DNA of 64,000 bases from an uncultured Sphingobacteriales bacterium (GTDB lineage Bacteria > Bacteroidota > Bacteroidia > Chitinophagales > Chitinophagaceae), in the NCBI GenBank assembly GCA_937871285.1, contig CALMQS010000038.1, positions 184,477 through 248,476 of the forward strand, in the 5' to 3' direction. A program made the translations under genes and the position numbers. This document shows, one piece after another, positions 4,921 to 64,000 of this stretch (its first letter is position 1; each line of letters opens with the position of its first letter). Below the pieces are notes generated by a model. It worked only from the letters and a program-made list of their open reading frames with translations, was not told the origin of the DNA and made no database searches.

Positions 4921-7757
4921 TATAAAAACTTTGCAGTATAGCTTTCCTTTACTTTTGTCAGATCAGCCGGTGTGCCTGCAAAAACAAGGCTGCCACCGGC
5001 ATCGCCCGCTTCCGGACCGAGATCAATTACCCAATCGGCGTTTCTTATTACATCGGTATTGTGTTCGATCACCCATATAGAATGTCCCTGCTCTATTAAT
5101 GCACGAAAGGAACTAAGCAATTTGTTGATATCGTGAAAATGCAGGCCCGTGGTAGGTTCATCAAAAATGAACAGGATATGCCCCTGCGATCTGCCTTTTC
5201 CCAGAAAGGAAGCCAACTTTACGCGCTGCGCTTCACCGCCGGAAAGCGTATCGCTCGATTGTCCGAGCTTTACATATCCCAGCCCCACATCGGCAAGCGG
5301 TTTTAATTTTGTAATAATGTCTTTCTGCTCCTTAAAAAACTGAAGGGCTTCATCTACGCTCATTTCCAATACATCAAAAATATTTTTCTCTTTATAGGTC
5401 ACCGCCAGTACTTCTTCTTTAAACCTTTTCCCGTTGCAAACTTCACAGGTAAGATGCACATCGGCCAAAAACTGCATTTCAACCACCTGTTCGCCTTCTC
5501 CTTTGCAGGCATCACAGCGGCCGCCTTCCACGTTAAAAGAAAAATGTTTTGGCTGAAAGCCGTTTATTTTACTCAGCGGTTGTTTGGCGTACAGATCCCT
5601 TATCTCATCGTAGGCCTTAATATAGGTTACCGGGTTACTGCGAGATGATTTTCCAATAGGATTCTGGTCTACCAGCTCTACCTGCGTAATATGATCCACA
5701 TCGCCGGTAATGACCTTATGCAAACCCACTTTTTCTGTGAACTCCCCTTTTATTTTTTTTAAAGCGGGATATACAATTTGTTTTACTAAGGTGGTTTTTC
5801 CGCTACCGCTTACGCCGCTTACCACGCATAAAACATTCAATGGAAATTCAACAGTAATGTTCTTCAGGTTATGCTGGCGGGCGCCTTCCACTGTTACCGA
5901 CCGTTTCCATTTGCGAACCGTTGCGGGGGATTCAATTTTTAGTTCGCCTTTGAGGTATTTCCCGGTAAGACTTTCTTTGTTACGGATGATAGCGTCATAA
6001 TCGCCTTCCGCGATCACTTCACCACCCAGATGACTGGCCAGGGGGCCCATATCAATGATGTGATCTGCTTCGCGCATCATCATCTCGTCATGCTCCACCA
6101 CCACCACGGTATTACCCAGGTCCCTTAATTCTTTTAATACTTTTATCAGCCGTGCCGTATCTCTCGAATGCAATCCAATAGAAGGCTCATCAAGTATATA
6201 CAAAGAGCTGGTGAGGTTGCTGCCCAGGCTCCTGGTGAGCTGAATGCGCTGGCTTTCTCCGCCGCTAATGCTGTTGGCCAGGCGGTTCAGGCTCAGGTAA
6301 CCCAGTCCTACGTCGAGCAACACCTGCAAACGTTGCTCAATTTCAATAAGCACGCGCTTTGCAACCTGCCGGTCATAATCACTGAGCCGCAGTGCATCAA
6401 ACCATTGTTTCAGGTCTTTTACCTGCAGTTCGCACAATTCTCCAATGTGTTTTCCATCAACCTTTACATATAAGGCTTCTTTCCGCAACCGGTAACCCTT
6501 ACATTCCGGGCAGGTGGTTCTTCCGCGGTAGCGGGATAGCAATACCCGGTATTGTACCTTATATAAGTTCTGCTCTACTTCTTTGAAGAAGTCGTTAATG
6601 CCTTTTGCATGGGCATTACCATTCCATAGCTCATCATATTGCTGCGGGGTAAGATCAATAACAGGCTTATGTACGGGAAAGTTAAAATATTTGGCGCCCC
6701 GTATGAACTGATCTTTCCAGCGGCTGAGCTTCTCGCCTTTCCACGGCGCCACAGCGCCTTCGTACAGGCTTAACCGCGGGTCGGGTATTACCAGTCCCGC
6801 ATCAATACCCAGCACCTGCGAAAAGCCTTCGCATACGGGGCATGCGCCGTAAGGATTATTAAACGAAAAAAGATTGGGCACAGGCTCTTCGAATGTAATG
6901 CCGTCCTTTTCAAACCTGTTAGAATAGGGCAGCTGTTTTGCACCATTCACTTCAAGCATCATTTCTCCTTCTCCTTCAAAAAAAGCAGTGCCAACGGAGT
7001 CGGCCAAACGATGCATATCGTCTTCATCAAAGGGCTTTACCACTATGCGGTCAATCAAAATGTACATACGGTCTGCGGAAGAGTTTTTGATAAACCGCTT
7101 TTTTAACTCTGTATCCTTTTGTTCAAGCGTATCCTCAATACGCAATATTTCGCCTCCGGAAGATCCCGGGATAACATATAATCTCGAAAATCCTTTTTGC
7201 AGCAGTATATTCAATTCTTCCCTGGTATCTCTTTTACCCTGCAGCCTGAACGGGGCAAGTATTAGTATCTTATCGCCGGTATTATGTGTGTTAATGGCTT
7301 CCACCACATCCTTCACGTCATCTTTCCTCACTTCCTCCCCGCTTACCGGTGAAATGGTTTTACCAATACGGGCAAACAGCAGGCGCAGGTAATCATATAT
7401 CTCTGTCATACTGCCCACGGTGGAGCGCGGTGTACGGGTAACTACTTTTTGTTCGATGGCTATGGCAGGACACAAGCCCTTAATAAAGTCCACATCCGGC
7501 TTATTCATCCTGTTCAAAAACTGGCGGGCGTATGCGCTGAGGCTTTCTGCATAGCGGCGCTGCCCTTCCGCAAACAGGGTATCAATAGTAAGCGACGATT
7601 TACCGGATCCGGAAACACCTGTTACTACCACCAGCTTATTACGGGGGATCTCAACCGTTATGTTTTTTAAATTATGTACTCTTGCGCCTTTAATTAAAAT
7701 ATTATTATTACTGCGCTGTACCAGTGGCTTTTTCTTTTTTCCTGATGTAGCTATCAT
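4920..7757 (-). CDS. uvrA: Excinuclease ABC subunit A
   Basis: A 945-aa DNA-damage recognition ATPase of nucleotide excision repair that works with UvrB and UvrC. It shows two ABC modules: Walker [10 protein letters not shown] near residue 46 and GVSGSGKTT near 645, with signature sequences SISGGESQR and TLSGGEAQR. The zinc-binding cysteine groups are present (CPVCEG, CPECKG, then CDACKGEG and CEVCNGKR). Length matches family members. The start is ATG at 7757; a 319-bp intergenic region separates it from the divergent sigma-factor gene. Confidence 0.98.
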
Positions 7758-46871: not shown

Positions 46872-47707
46872 ATGAATGATTTTGATAACCTAAGCGATGA
46901 AGAACGCCTGAAAGCAGAAAACGATTTTCTGAAAATGAAACTGATGCTTGAAAAGGGCCCGAATTTGAAAAAACGGATGATGCCGCCATGCTTCCGCCCC
47001 GGATAGAAAACGAATTCCTCCATTATATCCAGGCATTTGAAAAGCAATCCCAAAATCCAAAGTATATCAAAGTTTTTGATAAGATAGAGAGACCGGTTCA
47101 TTTTAAGCCGGTATCTGAAATACCCGATGATGAAATAGAAGAAGCCTGGGAAACGCTGCATGGTTATTTACAGCAATATCAAATCAGTTTGGATGTATGC
47201 AGTGCCAACATTACAGTACGCGAGCTGTACCGCTTCACTACTGAAGAATTATTTGAGCATGAAATGAATGATATGGATATCCCCGGTATGATGCACGGGT
47301 TTATTTATGATGAGTTTTACCCGGATCATGCTTACGACAATACAAATTATGCTGTAGATAACTGCATAGCGTACCTGCTTCAAAAATCGCCATTTGATTA
47401 TATGCCCTGCTTCAGGAGTAAAAACCTGAGATTAAATAACCATTACCCGCTTTCGAAAGATGCATTTAAATTGCTGGCAAACCGGTTTAAGGAAGCATAC
47501 GATACGCTGGATGATGCTGAAATTGGCGGGGAAACATGTACCATTAACGGCAATACCTGCATTGTAAAAGGAAACTACGCAGTAACTGCCTCATTGCAAA
47601 ATGATCCCATATATCTAAAAGGAAGCTGGGGTGTTCATTTTGAGCTGGATACAACATTGGATTGCTGGTATCTTTGGAATGTACAGGTTGAGGGTATTTC
47701 GTTTTGA
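46872..47707 (+). pseudogene. Conserved hypothetical gene split by a -1 frameshift (possibly programmed)
   Basis: The reading frame starts at ATG 46872 (MNDFDNLSDEERLKAENDF) and runs 45 codons to a stop at 47004-47006. The rest of the protein lies in the -1 frame from about 46959 to 47707 (PEFEKTDDAAMLPPRIENEF onward, about 249 residues). The two parts join naturally at KLMLEKG/PEFEK. The junction carries AAAAGGGCCC; in the first frame it reads A-AAG-GGC, which fits the X-XXY-YYZ slippery pattern, so -1 frameshifting would restore the whole protein. A single-base deletion is the simpler reading. Function unknown; the C-terminal half may be a small alpha+beta fold. Confidence 0.7.
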
Positions 47708-47746: not shown

Positions 47747-47821
47747 CAGGCTGTCTGAAAATTATTTTTAAAAAATTATTTTTAAAAAACTTGCACTATC
47801 AAAAAAATAGCTCAACCTTTG
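47747..47821 (+). promoter_or_regulatory. Strong promoter with AT-rich upstream element for the attenuator-tRNA locus
   Basis: TTG at 47791-47793, a 20-base spacer and AACCTTTG at 47814-47821 fit the Bacteroidota promoter apart from one base (TA to AA). Directly upstream, attatttttaaaaa is repeated twice (about 47761-47788), an A/T-tract block like the UP elements of stable-RNA promoters. Start of transcription would be near 47828, 25 bases before the first short ORF. Confidence 0.65.
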
Positions 47822-47852
47822 CACCGCAAAATAAAATGATAAACAGTAACAC

Positions 47853-47945
47853 ATGCATCAAAAAGAACAACAAATTAAAACATCAGATTGGTTTAGCCGG
47901 ACAGGCTATGATACCAGTTGCGGGGCATGTAATGCTGATGGTTAA
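47853..47945 (+). CDS. Putative 30-aa leader peptide 1 (attenuator)
   Basis: The ORF encodes 30 residues; the first 16 are MHQKEQQIKTSDWFSR. Codons 2-16 contain His, Gln x3, Lys x2, Glu, Asp, Phe and Arg, which covers all seven amino acids of the tRNA array downstream (10 of 15 codons). Codons 22-25 (agT TGC GGG GCa) contain the segment 47918-47926 that is complementary to the 5' arm of the terminator at 47976-47995. A ribosome stalled early would leave that segment free and favour read-through; one that reaches the stop would cover it and allow termination. This is the classical attenuation layout. No Shine-Dalgarno is seen. A stand-alone small Cys-containing protein (CGAC near the end) is the alternative. 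Confidence 0.65.
   Translation: MHQKEQQIKTSDWFSRTGYDTSCGACNADG
47918..47926 (+). promoter_or_regulatory. Antiterminator segment of attenuator 1
   Basis: TTGCGGGGC (47918-47926) can pair over 9 bp with GCCCCGCAA (47975-47983), one base pair longer than the terminator stem itself. Its first 8 bases are identical to the 3' arm of the terminator (47988-47995), so the two structures are mutually exclusive. A small TAGCC-GGACA-GGCTA hairpin at 47894-47908 lies just before it and could act as a pause site. Confidence 0.7.
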
Positions 47946-47975
47946 GTTGAAATAACAGATTCAATCAAATATACG

Positions 47976-48000
47976 CCCCGCAAGAGATTGCGGGGTTTTT
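47976..48000 (+). terminator. Intrinsic terminator of attenuator 1
   Basis: CCCCGCAA (47976-47983), loop GAGA, TTGCGGGG (47988-47995) and a run of five T's: a perfect GC-rich 8-bp terminator 30 bases after the stop of the 30-codon ORF and before the 53-codon ORF. Confidence 0.92.
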
Positions 48001-48028
48001 ATTTTCGGTGAATATTTATTAAAATAAA

Positions 48029-48190
48029 ATGCTGAAAGCTTTAAAACATAAACGATTTACGATTCCAATGCGGAATATACAGCTATCATTATCTGTACGA
48101 TATGGGTATGTGCAGGCCAACAACAGCAGTGTGCCTGAAGGCCATGAAGAGGATAGCAAACATACGCGACCGTGGTATAACTATACATAA
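48029..48190 (+). CDS. Putative 53-aa leader peptide 2 (attenuator)
   Basis: The ORF lies between the two terminators. It starts MLKALKHKRF and contains EGHEEDSKHTRPW at residues 37-49. Eighteen of its 52 residues after Met are amino acids of the tRNA array (Lys, His, Arg, Phe, Gln, Glu, Asp all occur), with 7 of 9 at residues 37-45, just before the segment 48166-48176 that can pair with the terminator at 48220-48244. No promoter is seen between the first terminator and this ORF, so its transcription should depend on read-through. An ordinary small protein cannot be excluded. Confidence 0.55.
   Translation: MLKALKHKRFTIPMRNIQLSLSVRYGYVQANNSSVPEGHEEDSKHTRPWYNYT
48166..48176 (+). promoter_or_regulatory. 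Antiterminator segment of attenuator 2
   Basis: GCGACCG (48166-48172) pairs with CGGTCGC (48223-48229), and after a single bulged T (48173) GGT (48174-48176) pairs with ACC (48220-48222): 10 bp that use up the 5' arm of the second terminator. The segment lies in codons 46-49 of the 53-codon ORF. Confidence 0.6.
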
Positions 48191-48219
48191 CCTGTATTGA
48201 ACAGGCATAATGAAAAGGG

Positions 48220-48249
48220 ACCCGGTCGCAGCAAACGACCGGGTTTTTT
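48220..48249 (+). terminator. Intrinsic terminator of attenuator 2, upstream of the tRNA array
   Basis: ACCCGGTCG (48220-48228) and CGACCGGGT (48236-48244) form a perfect 9-bp stem with a 7-base loop, followed by a run of T's to 48249. The first tRNA gene starts 59 bases later. Confidence 0.92.
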
Positions 48250-48307
48250 GTTGCTGCATATAAAAATAGCGGGTATAGGATCAGATCCTTCCTGCCAAAC
48301 AAACAAT

Positions 48308-48380
48308 GATCTGTTCGTCTAATGGTTCAGGACGCAAGGTTTTCATTCTTGAAATACGGGTTCAACTCCCGTACAGATTA
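48308..48380 (+). tRNA. tRNA-Glu (TTC)
   Basis: A full cloverleaf: acceptor gatctgt/acagatt (first pair G-U), D-arm gtct/ggac, anticodon stem caagg/tcttg with loop ttTTCat, T-arm acggg/cccgt with loop ttcaact, discriminator A. CCA is not encoded. It is the first of seven tRNA genes separated mostly by 3-6 bases. Confidence 0.93.
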
Positions 48381-48383
48381 CAA

Positions 48384-48455
48384 GGTTCGTTGGTGTAACG
48401 GCTAACATCACAGATTGTCGATCTGTTGCTATGGGTTCGATTCCCGTACGAACCG
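48384..48455 (+). tRNA. tRNA-Asp (GTC)
   Basis: Acceptor ggttcgt/acgaacc, anticodon stem acaga/tctgt with loop ttGTCga, T-arm atggg/cccgt with loop ttcgatt, discriminator G as expected for Asp. It starts 3 bases after tRNA-Glu. Confidence 0.94.
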
Positions 48456-48460
48456 CTGAA

Positions 48461-48533
48461 TGTTGGATGGTGCAATGGTTGAGCATTTCAGCATTTGAAG
48501 CTGAAGATGCTGGTTCGAATCCAGCTCCGACAA
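48461..48533 (+). tRNA. tRNA-Gln (TTG)
   Basis: Acceptor tgttgga/tccgaca with one T-G pair, D-stem gtgc/gcat, anticodon stem tcagc/gctga with loop atTTGaa, T-arm gctgg/ccagc with loop ttcgaat, discriminator A. Five bases separate it from tRNA-Asp. The loop sequence ttgaa could be misread as a Phe anticodon, but stem geometry gives TTG. Confidence 0.88.
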
Positions 48534-48539
48534 CAATAC

Positions 48540-48611
48540 GTTGGCTTTAGCTTATCCGGTAAAGCACCACACTGTGAATGTGGAGAACAGGGTTCGAATC
48601 CCGGAGTCAAC
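48540..48611 (+). tRNA. tRNA-His (GTG), slightly irregular
   Basis: Anticodon stem ccaca/tgtgg with loop ctGTGaa. The acceptor gttggct(t) pairs with agtcaac with one G-T pair, and G at 48540 can serve as the extra G-1. The T-arm caggg/cccgg has an A-G mismatch, and the T-arm to acceptor junction is one base short compared with the usual His cloverleaf, so the 3' boundary is uncertain by a base. Confidence 0.88.
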
Positions 48612-48617
48612 CAATGA

Positions 48618-48688
48618 TGGCTTATCGTTCAATGGAAGGATACTGTGCTACGAACACAGAGACAGAAGTTCGACTCTTCTTAAGCCAG
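48618..48688 (+). tRNA. tRNA-Arg (ACG)
   Basis: Acceptor tggctta/taagcca, D-stem gttc/ggat with two G-T pairs and a short D-loop, anticodon stem ctgtg/cacag with loop ctACGaa (A34 probably becomes inosine), T-arm agaag/cttct with loop ttcgact, discriminator G. The next tRNA is 55 bases away, the only large gap in the array. Confidence 0.9.
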
Positions 48689-48743
48689 CTAAAAGGATAA
48701 AGCGCTTAGTGGAAAATAAACTTCTGTAAGTCGCAACAAAAAT

Positions 48744-48817
48744 TGGCCCGTAGCTCAATTGGCAAGAGTATCCGGCTTTTAACCGGAGGGTTCAGGGTTC
48801 GAATCCCTGCGGACCAA
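48744..48817 (+). tRNA. tRNA-Lys (TTT)
   Basis: Anticodon stem tccgg/ccgga with loop ctTTTaa, T-arm caggg/ccctg with loop ttcgaat, D-stem gctc/gagt. The acceptor tggcccg/cggacca has a C-A mismatch at the fourth pair. Discriminator A, no CCA. Confidence 0.92.
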
Positions 48818-48821
48818 CGAC

Positions 48822-48893
48822 GGACGAATAGCTCCAATGGCAGAGCATTGGTTTGAAGCACCAACTGTGCTGGTTCGAATCCGGCTTCGTCCA
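48822..48893 (+). tRNA. tRNA-Phe (GAA)
   Basis: Acceptor ggacgaa/ttcgtcc, D-stem gctc/gagc, anticodon stem ttggt/accaa with loop ttGAAgc, T-arm gctgg/ccggc with one T-G pair, discriminator A. It is 4 bases after tRNA-Lys, ends the array, and lies 37 bases before the YkuK gene with no terminator between. Confidence 0.92.
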
Positions 48894-48930
48894 CAGATAA
48901 GAAGATTTTAAATACCTGTTAAGGAAGAAA

Positions 48931-49416
48931 ATGGAACAACAGCAAAAATGGAGGAAGTTATCCGGCGAAAGCGTTCAACAGCCGATTGAAGATGAGATAA
49001 GAACTGTGATCATAAGAGAAAAAGAAATGGGACATTCTTTAAAAGTGTGCATTGGCACCGACAGCCAGGTAAAGGGGAGGGAAACTGAATTTGCGACTGT
49101 TATTGTATTCATCAGGAAAGGGAAGGGAGGGTTCATGTATATACACAATGAGATCACTACACAAAAGATGAGCATCAAACAACGGATGCTGACTGAGGTA
49201 GGTAAGAGTATTGAAGTGGCTTATGCCCTGTGCAATATTTTTTCGCGGTACAGCGTGGATATGGAAGTGCATGCCGACATCAACACCAATCCAAACTTTA
49301 AGAGCAATGATGCGCTAAAAGAAGCCATGGGTTATATTATGGGAATGGGATTCGCCTTTAAAGCAAAACCGGAGGCCTTTGCAAGCTCAAGCTGTGCGAA
49401 TAAAGTGGTACAATAA
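48931..49416 (+). CDS. YkuK/DUF458 family RNase H-fold protein
   Basis: A 161-aa cytoplasmic protein of the YkuK family, which has an RNase H-like fold of unknown activity. LKVCIGTDSQVKGRETEFATVIVFI (about 35-59) gives the first acidic strand (IGTDSQ), followed by a VEVHADINTNPNFKSN acidic block near 110-125 and a closing GMGFAFKAKPEAFASSSCANK. It starts 37 bases after tRNA-Phe without an intervening terminator, so it probably sits on the same transcript as the tRNA array. A role in RNA processing or quality control there is inference. Confidence 0.85.
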   Translation: MEQQQKWRKLSGESVQQPIEDEIRTVIIREKEMGHSLKVCIGTDSQVKGRETEFATVIVFIRKGKGGFMYIHNEITTQKMSIKQRMLTEVGKSIEVAYALCNIFSRYSVDMEVHADINTNPNFKSNDALKEAMGYIMGMGFAFKAKPEAFASSSCANKVVQ

Positions 49417-49837: not shown

Positions 49838-51307
49838 ATGAACAAGTTAAAAATAACAGGAAAAGAATTAAGAGCTATCGGCTACCCCGAAAGCCCGGTG
49901 ATAAGCGTGGCAATGAATGTGATGCAAAAAAACTATAAGCATCATAATAAGGAGAGAGTAATGGAACTATTGAAAAAAATACTGGAAGCACCGGTTGCAT
50001 ATAAAGACGATGCGGTACTGGGGTTGATTGCAGCAAAGCTGCTGCATACCCTTCACAAGGATAAGGCTGGCCATGCGGGAGGAGCACAGGTGTCATTGAA
50101 TAATTCAGGTATTCCGTTCCATGTATTCGGACAGGAACATATTGAAGAAGGCGCCATGCACCAGATGTATACCGCGGCTAAACTGCCCGTGGCCGTTGCG
50201 GGGGCCTTAATGCCCGACGCGCACAGCGGTTACGGCTTGCCGATAGGTGGTGTGCTGGCAACACACAACGCGGTAATACCGTATGGCGTTGGCGTGGATA
50301 TTGGCTGCCGCATGTGTTTGAGCGTGTTTGACATGGATCCGAAGGAGTTGCTGAAAAAGGAAAATTATTTTATAAGGGAATTAAATGAAGCTACCCTGTT
50401 CGGAAGCGGAAAGCAGTTTGATCATGCCGCTGATCACGAAGTAATGGATCGCCCGGAATTTGGATCGCTGCCTTTACTGAAAAACCTGCACGGACGGGCA
50501 TGGAAGCAATTAGGATCATCCGGGAGCGGTAATCATTTCGTGGAATTTGGTGAAGTGGCAATAACTGAGAAAGATGAGGTATTGGGTATTGAACCGGGTA
50601 ATTATGTGGCACTGTTGTCGCACTCCGGCTCAAGGGCATTGGGGGCTAACATAGCCAATCACTATACTAAGATCGCCAAACAAAAAAGACGCCTGCCGGG
50701 CGAAGCCGCCAACCTTGCCTGGCTCAGCTTAGATGAAGAAGCCGGTATGGAATACTGGATCGCCATGAACCTGGCAGGTGATTATGCTTCTGCCTGTCAT
50801 CATATCATCCATGAAAAAATAGCAAAGCAATTGGAACGTAAACCAATTAAGATGGTAGAGAATCATCACAACTTTGCATGGAAGGAACAATGGGAAGGAA
50901 AGGAAGTGATCGTTCATCGCAAAGGCGCTACACCGGCAGGTAAAAACGTATTGGGTATTATTCCCGGCAGCATGACCGCTAATGGATTTATAGTAAAAGG
51001 AAAAGGAGAGGAAGCCTCTGTGAATTCCGCATCGCATGGAGCAGGCAGGCAAATGAGCCGCAGTAAAGCGTTACAATCTGTTACCGACAGCGCGCTGAAA
51101 GCTGAGCTTAAAAAGCACCAGGTAAAATTGCTGGGCGGCGGGTTAGATGAAGCACCTTTTGCCTATAAGGATATTGAGGCGGTAATGCAATCGCAAAAAC
51201 AACTGGTGGAGGTGCTCGGCAGGTTCGTGCCTAAAATTGTAAAGATGGACGGTGCTTCGCATAAGAATTGGGGAAAGAAGGTAAGAACAGATGTGATGGG
51301 GGAGTGA
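49838..51307 (+). CDS. rtcB: RNA 3'-phosphate/5'-OH ligase RtcB
   Basis: A 489-aa GTP- and Mn-dependent RNA ligase that joins 2',3'-cyclic phosphate or 3'-phosphate ends to 5'-OH ends, the ends left by anticodon nucleases and other toxins. The metal ligands are visible: D154 and C157 in GVDIGCRM, H233 in SGNHFVEFG, H262 in LSHSGSR. The guanylylated His is H360 in HRKGATPAG, and SHGAGRQMSRSKA closes the site. I start at ATG 49838; an earlier in-frame GTG would read through a repeat. No archease, RtcA or RtcR is next to it. It lies downstream of the tRNA array and YkuK. Confidence 0.96.
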   Translation: MNKLKITGKELRAIGYPESPVISVAMNVMQKNYKHHNKERVMELLKKILEAPVAYKDDAVLGLIAAKLLHTLHKDKAGHAGGAQVSLNNSGIPFHVFGQEHIEEGAMHQMYTAAKLPVAVAGALMPDAHSGYGLPIGGVLATHNAVIPYGVGVDIGCRMCLSVFDMDPKELLKKENYFIRELNEATLFGSGKQFDHAADHEVMDRPEFGSLPLLKNLHGRAWKQLGSSGSGNHFVEFGEVAITEKDEVLGIEPGNYVALLSHSGSRALGANIANHYTKIAKQKRRLPGEAANLAWLSLDEEAGMEYWIAMNLAGDYASACHHIIHEKIAKQLERKPIKMVENHHNFAWKEQWEGKEVIVHRKGATPAGKNVLGIIPGSMTANGFIVKGKGEEASVNSASHGAGRQMSRSKALQSVTDSALKAELKKHQVKLLGGGLDEAPFAYKDIEAVMQSQKQLVEVLGRFVPKIVKMDGASHKNWGKKVRTDVMGE

Positions 51308-63946: not shown

Positions 63947-64000
63947 CTCCCCCTTCAGGACTTGAACCTGAGACCCTCTGATTAACAGTCAGATGCTCTA
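63947..64000 (-). tRNA. tRNA-Asn (GTT), cut by the window edge
   Basis: The 3' part of a tRNA on the minus strand: anticodon stem tctga/tcaga with loop ctGTTaa, T-arm tcagg/cctga with loop ttcaagt, acceptor strand aggggga and discriminator G. CCA is not encoded (ca follows). The 5' end lies beyond 64000. Confidence 0.92.

Follow-up and report, generated by a model that had tools for sequence, protein, structure and literature searches.

Ribosome-mediated attenuation is a classical form of gene control. In attenuators of the trp type, a protector (1:2) hairpin terminates transcription when nothing is translated, a property that is not universal, and the ilv leader senses three amino acids. Among the described systems closest to the locus reported here, the trp and his attenuators share its short ORF, its intrinsic terminator, an exclusive antiterminator, and the gating of transcription by ribosome position; the timing race of attenuation was modelled by Elf and Ehrenberg (PMC1183508). 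The leader of Salmonella mgtCBR resembles it in having two short ORFs, mgtM and mgtP, one of which answers a lack of charged tRNA, and represents the tandem attenuators that are already known (PMC3641672). The toiL uORF of Escherichia coli topAI is, like the leaders described below, multipurpose and senses several translation stresses (PMC12121999). Two further systems are similar in what they control. The trn operon of Anabaena, a case of repressor-controlled extra tRNA arrays, consists of 26 extra tRNA genes that stay silent until translational stress induces them, with rtcB co-regulated (PMC10272220). The rsr-yrlBA-rtcBA operon of Salmonella, one of the known damage-induced rtc operons, joins RtcB to a Ro60-type partner and is induced by damaged tRNA (PMC7790460).

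Here, we describe a locus in which two predicted attenuators in series probably gate spare tRNA and RNA-repair genes and open on ribosome stalling for almost any missing tRNA. It lies in a stretch of 64,000 nucleotides from an uncultured Sphingobacteriales bacterium of the family Chitinophagaceae (contig CALMQS010000038.1), called the window below. A first-pass annotation had listed a promoter, ORFs of 30 and 53 codons, two terminators, and tRNA genes, and all of these parts are present in the window:

47791..47821, plus strand: predicted promoter, with TTG at 47791-47793 (-33), AACCTTTG (-7), and NANNTTTG at 47814-47821
47853..47945, plus strand: leader ORF1, 30 codons, MHQKEQQIKTSDWFSRTGYDTSCGACNADG, recognized by spacing and in-frame conservation
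47918..47926, plus strand: antiterminator 1 strand TTGCGGGGC, within the ORF1 codons for Ser-Cys-Gly-Ala
47975..48000, plus strand: predicted intrinsic terminator T1, stem 47975-47996, T run to 48000
48029..48190, plus strand: leader ORF2, 53 codons, ending in HTRPWYNYT, recognized by its spacing in relatives
48166..48172, plus strand: antiterminator 2 strand GCGACCG, within the ORF2 codons for Thr-Arg-Pro
48191..48205, plus strand: small hairpin CCTGT..ACAGG between antiterminator 2 and T2, from sequence and fold
48218..48249, plus strand: predicted intrinsic terminator T2, stem 48218-48246, T run to 48249
48308..48894, plus strand: tRNA array Glu(ttc), Asp(gtc), Gln(ttg), His(gtg), Arg(acg), Lys(ttt), Phe(gaa)
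48931..49416, plus strand: YkuK-like RNase H-like protein (PF04308 = DUF458), the leader-type paralogue by Pfam and tree
49838..51307, plus strand: RtcB-family RNA ligase (Pfam RtcB over its N-terminal part; NCBIfam RtcB-family models below their curated cut-offs)

The gene order can be read directly from the window, and a single transcript would run over the leader, the array, the YkuK gene, and rtcB. Both hairpins are perfect, each with a T run. The codons at the end of each ORF duplicate a portion of the 3' arm of the terminator that follows and can therefore pair with its 5' arm: TTGCGGGGC at 47918-47926 with GCCCCGCAA at 47975-47983 on the 5' side of T1, and GCGACCG at 48166-48172 with CGGTCGC of the 5' arm of T2. 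Such pairing segments near the 3' end of each ORF had been proposed at first reading; we found both, and they fold beyond dinucleotide shuffles. Compared with 200 such shuffles, the T1 hairpin reached -18.3 kcal/mol (z=-5.6) and the T2 hairpin -21.0 kcal/mol (z=-4.5), while the antiterminators folded alone reached -20.2 kcal/mol (z=-2.6) for the first and -23.9 kcal/mol (z=-4.3) for the second. With both arms available, the terminators win, which we count against the model. As in known attenuators, a short ORF precedes each terminator and an intrinsic terminator precedes structural genes, as judged by sequence and fold, and the antiterminator excludes the terminator, as judged by pairing. At the window and its homologous sites, the sequence immediately 5' of T1 (47955-47975 in the window) contains a conserved AAC.AATTC..TA.AA.ACA. 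Elsewhere in the window, a tRNA gene on the minus strand (63947-64000) is truncated by the window end.

The YkuK-like DUF458 protein occurs in 135 of 147 family genomes, in a number of them in two copies, and the window genome also has a second copy. For comparison, 110 loci were fetched, 30 from family genomes (with L090 the window's own) and 80 named mostly as Chitinophagaceae or its genera; after three with duplicate leaders had been dropped, 107 DUF458 loci were left. The leader in L107 is the same as in L068, from a genome of this family (G006), which identifies the family as that of Chitinophaga tropicalis. T1 and/or T2 were detected at 47 of the 107 loci, giving 46 T1 and 50 T2 units, to which a covariance model adds the T1 of L114 (81.7 bits). 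The units were counted after hairpins without a leader had been omitted by hand (L062 at 6425, L092 at 5087, L109 at 7648 and 849, L110 at 5856, L084 at 2194, and those of L075 and L119), and the class of L115, L135, and the second L084 unit was assigned by eye. The T2 alignment, A3, holds 49 of the 50 units, with the T2 of L073 excluded.

In the DUF458 tree, the leader is found at 48 of 55 loci of one clade and at none of the 52 of the other; this split (support 0.74) was chosen because it divides loci that have a leader from those lacking one better than any other. The leaderless clade presumably represents a housekeeping paralogue and thus a natural control. Contig ends cut off two of the seven leaderless loci in the leader-type clade (L094 and L120); in the other five (L075, L077, L098, L104, and L137), two of which have tRNA genes, the upstream sequence is present and no leader was found in it. 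At least two sense-strand tRNA genes lie upstream at 38 of the 47 loci where the leader was detected and at 5 of the 60 others (L094, L104, L114, L120, and L137). By these counts, the leader is present at 39 of the 41 arrays with enough upstream sequence.

Across these loci, both terminators covary, with 14 double-changed cells for T1 and 38 for T2, values reached by none of 500 shuffles. For antiterminator 2, 86.7% of cells are paired, as compared to 9-52% when the strands are slid, and the covariation score was reached by 3 of 500 shuffles. For antiterminator 1, the corresponding figures are 81.2% and 34-49%; however, the whole helix does not rise above shuffles, which reached its covariation in 62 and its percentage paired in 152 of 500 cases, because its sequence hardly varies. 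One column pair of antiterminator 1 does covary (37 G-C, 6 A-U, 2 G-U, and 1 other; Fisher p=3.4e-6, with 45 of 46 rows and uncorrected for kinship). Locus by locus, the antiterminator exceeds shuffled leaders (p<=0.05) at 32 of 46 T1 and only 23 of 50 T2 units. When leaders were swapped onto the arms of other loci, the own-arm score was reached by 0 of 5000 permutations for T1 and by 38 of 5000 for T2. Individual variants keep the match: the T1 arm GCCTCGC of L071 goes with leader GAGGC, GCCCTGC of L080 with GCAGGGC, and the T2 arm CCGGTTGTA of L082 with TATAACCGG. The interval between antiterminator 2 and T2 folds beyond shuffles (z<-1) in 33 of 39 scored units, and that for T1 in 23 of 46. 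The predicted antiterminator pairing is thus kept, partly by compensatory changes. The comparison of orthologues suggested with the original claim, which asked whether ORFs, terminators, and antiterminators are retained and change in a compensatory manner, therefore came out positive, for antiterminator 1 mainly through invariance and the one covarying column pair.

The leader ORFs are conserved as well. An ORF that conforms to a rule of stop distance and length precedes 44 of 46 T1 units (dinucleotide shuffles predict 1.3) and 44 of 50 T2 units (1.9 predicted); the loci used for scoring are also those from which the rule was derived, and we still regard the gap as large. Among the 31 ORF1s of exactly 30 codons, the mean in-frame BLOSUM62 score was 21.4 (458 pairs), as compared to 4.1 and 8.0 in the other frames, and there were no stops in frame versus 31 and 49 in the others. 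A typical ORF1 peptide is MLRIQLHIEAMNWFSPKGDYTSCGACYADE (L092). The peptides are unusually diverse: the first 19 sense codons of ORF1 specify on average 15.1 distinct amino acids (range 12-17, n=44), and all 44 lie above the protein-segment mean of 11.4, with out-of-frame readings at 11.9 and 12.3. For ORF2, 18.3 distinct amino acids were found in 43 codons versus 16.0, and 36 of 40 exceed expectation. The leaders thus read nearly every amino acid. Amino acids common in the arrays are enriched in the leaders relative to proteins (rho=0.59, p=0.0065 for ORF1; rho=0.46, p=0.04 for ORF2) and, for both ORFs, relative to a composition-matched null (rho=0.46, p=0.04).

These parts suggest how the gates would work. 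During smooth translation, the ribosome would cover the antiterminator strand while the terminator is being made, T1 or T2 would form, and transcription would stop. A ribosome halted in the first two thirds of the ORF would instead leave the antiterminator strand free to capture the 5' arm of the terminator, and the polymerase would pass. Read-through to the array would require both gates to open, and gates in series would be expected to lower leakage. In fold simulations of the stage before the 3' arm of the terminator is made, the median probability of the antiterminator was 0.98 in the free leader (from the ORF start) and likewise 0.98 with an early ribosome stall (44 and 49 units), while a ribosome placed on the antiterminator strand reduced it to medians of 0.02 and 0.00 (44 and 49 units). 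When the stop codon occupied the A site, the median was 0.01 for ORF2 (below 0.5 in 35 of 49) and 0.67 for ORF1 (below 0.5 in 11 of 44). Because antiterminator 1 is predicted to re-form in this position, ORF1 would have to work by timing, in a race like that modelled by Elf and Ehrenberg. The simulations revealed no trp-type structure restraining the antiterminator when nothing is translated; thus, failed initiation or a stall at nearly any early codon should open each gate. The proposal of the first-pass annotation, ribosome-mediated attenuation that gates transcription twice through two peptides, is in this way supported by the conserved ORFs and the conserved predicted terminators and antiterminators.

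The choice of codons in the leaders points to what would be sensed. Leaders over-use the codons that the anticodons of their own locus's array read (z=6.3, 37 loci, 0 of 10,000 permutations), also among 24 nonredundant loci with less than 75% DUF458 identity (z=5.2), while the two other frames, which share the same DNA and ancestry, gave z of -0.5 to 0.9. At the amino-acid level, the tracking reached z=5.8. Among the codons for isoleucine, ATA makes up 62% where the array contains tRNA-Ile(tat) and 45% where it does not; the corresponding values are 69% and 53% for serine AGY with Ser(gct), and 42% and 21% for arginine AGR with Arg(tct), the last based on few codons. In the same comparison across loci, tracking was absent for Phe, Pro, Val, and Cys. 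Because presence is nearly saturated for amino acids inside and outside the arrays (260 of 263 array identities and 449 of 477 others occur in the leaders), the tracking concerns dose rather than presence. Contrasts among 18 sister pairs favored tracking per anticodon (78 to 40) but not per pair (9 to 7), with one wrong frame also at p=0.036. A wrong frame was nominally positive in two subsets as well (ORF2 alone, p=0.035; arrays with fewer than five identities, p=0.01), and a partial Mantel test was positive in all frames (r=0.125 in frame, 0.096 and 0.088 out of frame). We conclude that the tracking of the own array by leader codons is likely real and a matter of dose. As in attenuators whose regulatory codons match the product of the operon, codon use here follows the array anticodons, which strengthens the earlier idea that the leader senses several tRNAs at once. 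Because leaders over-use the codons read by their own spare tRNAs, the cell likely monitors tRNA loss at the level of individual codons. Since they read nearly all amino acids and carry additional array codons, the signal would be strongest when the lost tRNA is one for which the array has a replacement.

The same leaders could sense any block of translation, such as antibiotics or failed initiation, with no regard to particular tRNAs and with an incidental amino-acid content. We give this reading a substantial chance, although one short of even. The antiterminators form without a ribosome (median 0.98), nearly all amino acids occur in nearly all leaders, antibiotics that act on translation switch on the Anabaena trn operon (PMC10272220), and toiL senses several classes of antibiotics (PMC12121999), all of which agree with it. 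It does not account for codon use that follows the anticodons of the locus's own array, with a clear signal in frame only, and sensing of antibiotics has no need of 15.1 distinct amino acids in 19 codons. The two kinds of sensing, of any block and of tRNA loss, are compatible.

The window genome contains 7 array and 40 other tRNA sequences, and every array anticodon is also found elsewhere in the genome; as in Anabaena, an extra array thus stands beside a housekeeping set. In three genomes, the sequences fetched (for G055 and G086 the best 30 loci only) include a housekeeping partner of identical anticodon for 23 of 33 array tRNAs. The mean identity between array and housekeeping tRNAs with the same anticodon is 0.66-0.69, as compared to 0.67-0.68 between housekeeping tRNAs of different amino acids, and the anticodon stems differ from the partner in all 23 cases and the loops in 18 (the same three genomes). 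Altered stems and loops around a kept anticodon might allow the spares to escape the nuclease that destroyed the originals, and RtcB, judging by its family, would mend cut tRNAs. Loci of relatives also carry genes for TROVE/Ro60, RlaP, slipin (Band_7), AAA, and MatE proteins; as in rtc operons, RtcB therefore comes with repair partners, RtcB itself being in the window and TROVE, RlaP, and Band_7 in relatives. Taken together, we lean toward a codon-resolved alarm for tRNA damage, in which ribosomes on two survey peptides call on nearly every tRNA one after another, the gated operon supplies nuclease-resistant replacements for those tested hardest, and the leader of each genome is rewritten to its own array.

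Some copies of the leader have other cargo. At L072, L073, L082, L083, and L117 it stands before DUF458 with no tRNA found, and at L210, L212, L213, L215, L218, and L220 it lies 5' of an rtcB-like or AAA-like gene, again with no tRNA found (in L210 and L212 only its first half; genes in this set were named by the likeness of their first residues to the window RtcB or to L063 and L222). Because some copies lack tRNA genes, the gate seems to belong to RNA-repair operons. Of the original claim that the leader gates a tRNA array, it thus holds that arrays are the commonest cargo, in a sample based on DUF458; its scope is wider, as the gate precedes RNA-repair genes as a whole.

Several further features were seen at these loci. 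In L067 (5210-6730, by Pfam) and L079 (4669-6180, by sequence likeness), a TROVE/Ro60 gene lies between leader and array. A third conserved element, GCAGAAGGAGGAATAAGC-like and followed by a hairpin CCCCGT..GCGGGG, with no leader ORF seen, occurs between T2 and the array in L061 (~5725-5780), L062 (6425-6448), L064 (~7389-7438), L078 (~5283-5330), L092 (5087-5120), and L109 (7648-7680), all in array direction, and is absent from the window. Also absent from the window is a small ORF, MKFLL.VLAIHL...HPAE, which several relatives have between T2 and the array (L061 ~5576-5711, L062 ~6257-6392, and L064 ~7247-7382, array direction). The genome of L076 has a second, closely similar leader copy at a contig start (L214, G035). 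The unusual predicted anticodons Phe(aaa), Ile(aat), and Asn(att) were found in L061 (7179) and L078 (6379, both in array direction) and 5' of DUF458 in L125 and L153; these tRNAs may be mis-called or degenerate.

A classical amino-acid attenuator, with uncharged tRNA from starvation and not tRNA destruction as its signal, would have the same anatomy as that found here, and a ribosome cannot distinguish an uncharged from a destroyed tRNA. We nevertheless consider it unlikely: no amino-acid biosynthesis gene is present among the named operon proteins, new tRNA genes and RtcB would not be expected to cure starvation, and in the array tRNAs the anticodon stems, and mostly the loops as well, are altered.

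Leaders of this kind might extend beyond the family. A looser detector, which recovers 46 of 47 family loci, was applied to regions 5' of rtcB-like genes, most of them from other families of the class, and gave candidates in 8 of 34 on the sense strand versus 2 of 34 on the antisense strand. Among the 15 regions read, L216, L217, L219, L223, and L224 had no clear leader of this type. In L222, from a different family of the same order, a single unit lies ahead of an AAA gene and an rtcB-like ORF. Single or tandem leader-like ORFs with terminator and antiterminator were seen 5' of rtcB-like genes in L222, L271, L279, L283, L290, and L301. In a search of the order with model R1, 11 of 198 genomes exceeded 60 bits, all from the same family; matches below ~45 bits were treated as chance, except those individually read. 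The evidence for leader-like units outside the family is thus suggestive only.

The remaining alternatives concern what else could act on the leader RNA or end at its hairpins. A trans-acting protein or small RNA that switches the terminators, with ORFs not translated for regulation, is very improbable, as ORF frame, length, and spacing are conserved and the codon tracking is frame specific. Direct binding of tRNA by a T-box-like leader suits target genes that concern tRNA; however, at gathering thresholds Rfam matches in the window only the tRNA family, we therefore reject a T-box riboswitch, and we grant such binding next to no chance. The promoter-like site at 47791-47821 is of the Bacteroidota type. 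The pattern TTG-N17..24-NANNTTTG is located 5' of 43 of 44 ORF1s, as compared to 2.1% of 5000 random 110-nt windows, and it differs in type from the sigma-54 promoter of rtc operons. That T1 and T2 are ordinary tandem terminators of the upstream gene, ORF 46988-47707, which ends ~270-540 nt before them, is scarcely credible and was rejected given this promoter pattern just before the leader and the conserved antiterminators and ORFs. An independent promoter directly before the tRNA genes had been named as an observation that would speak against gating; of the 27 stretches of 40-900 nt that separate T2 from the first tRNA, none contains the leader-type pattern, and a second promoter of this type was accordingly rejected.

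Among the open PMC papers listed in our searches, titles and abstract starts showed no attenuator before tRNA genes and no survey-type leader peptide, and the main text of an attenuator survey (PMC2965389) has no tRNA genes, rtcB, or Bacteroidetes. If our reading is correct, this would be the first case known to us of ribosome-mediated attenuation controlling tRNA genes and the first leader peptide known to us that tests almost the whole tRNA set. It would explain how arrays of spare tRNAs are kept off and then brought into use, and would link these arrays to RNA repair across a large family of bacteria. The prediction is testable at the level of single codons, and the arrangement could serve as a natural template for reporters that detect the loss of one tRNA.

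Compared with the trp and his attenuators as described in PMC1183508, the target here is tRNA and RNA-repair genes, the antiterminator strand lies inside the ORF, the leader codons cover almost the full amino-acid set where those attenuators have runs of one to three, and no structure was seen that terminates without translation. While mgtM and mgtP answer different signals, ATP and proline (PMC3641672), both ORFs here are survey peptides placed before tRNA genes. In contrast to our leaders, toiL acts on a ribosome-binding site and Rho, not on an intrinsic terminator, and the account in PMC12121999 has no tRNA genes there. The Anabaena trn operon is controlled by the DNA-binding repressor TrcR, and the main text of PMC10272220 contains neither 'attenuat' nor 'leader'. 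Last, the Salmonella RtcR system senses tRNA fragments through a CARF-domain activator (PMC7790460), whereas here the ribosome itself would sense the missing tRNA.
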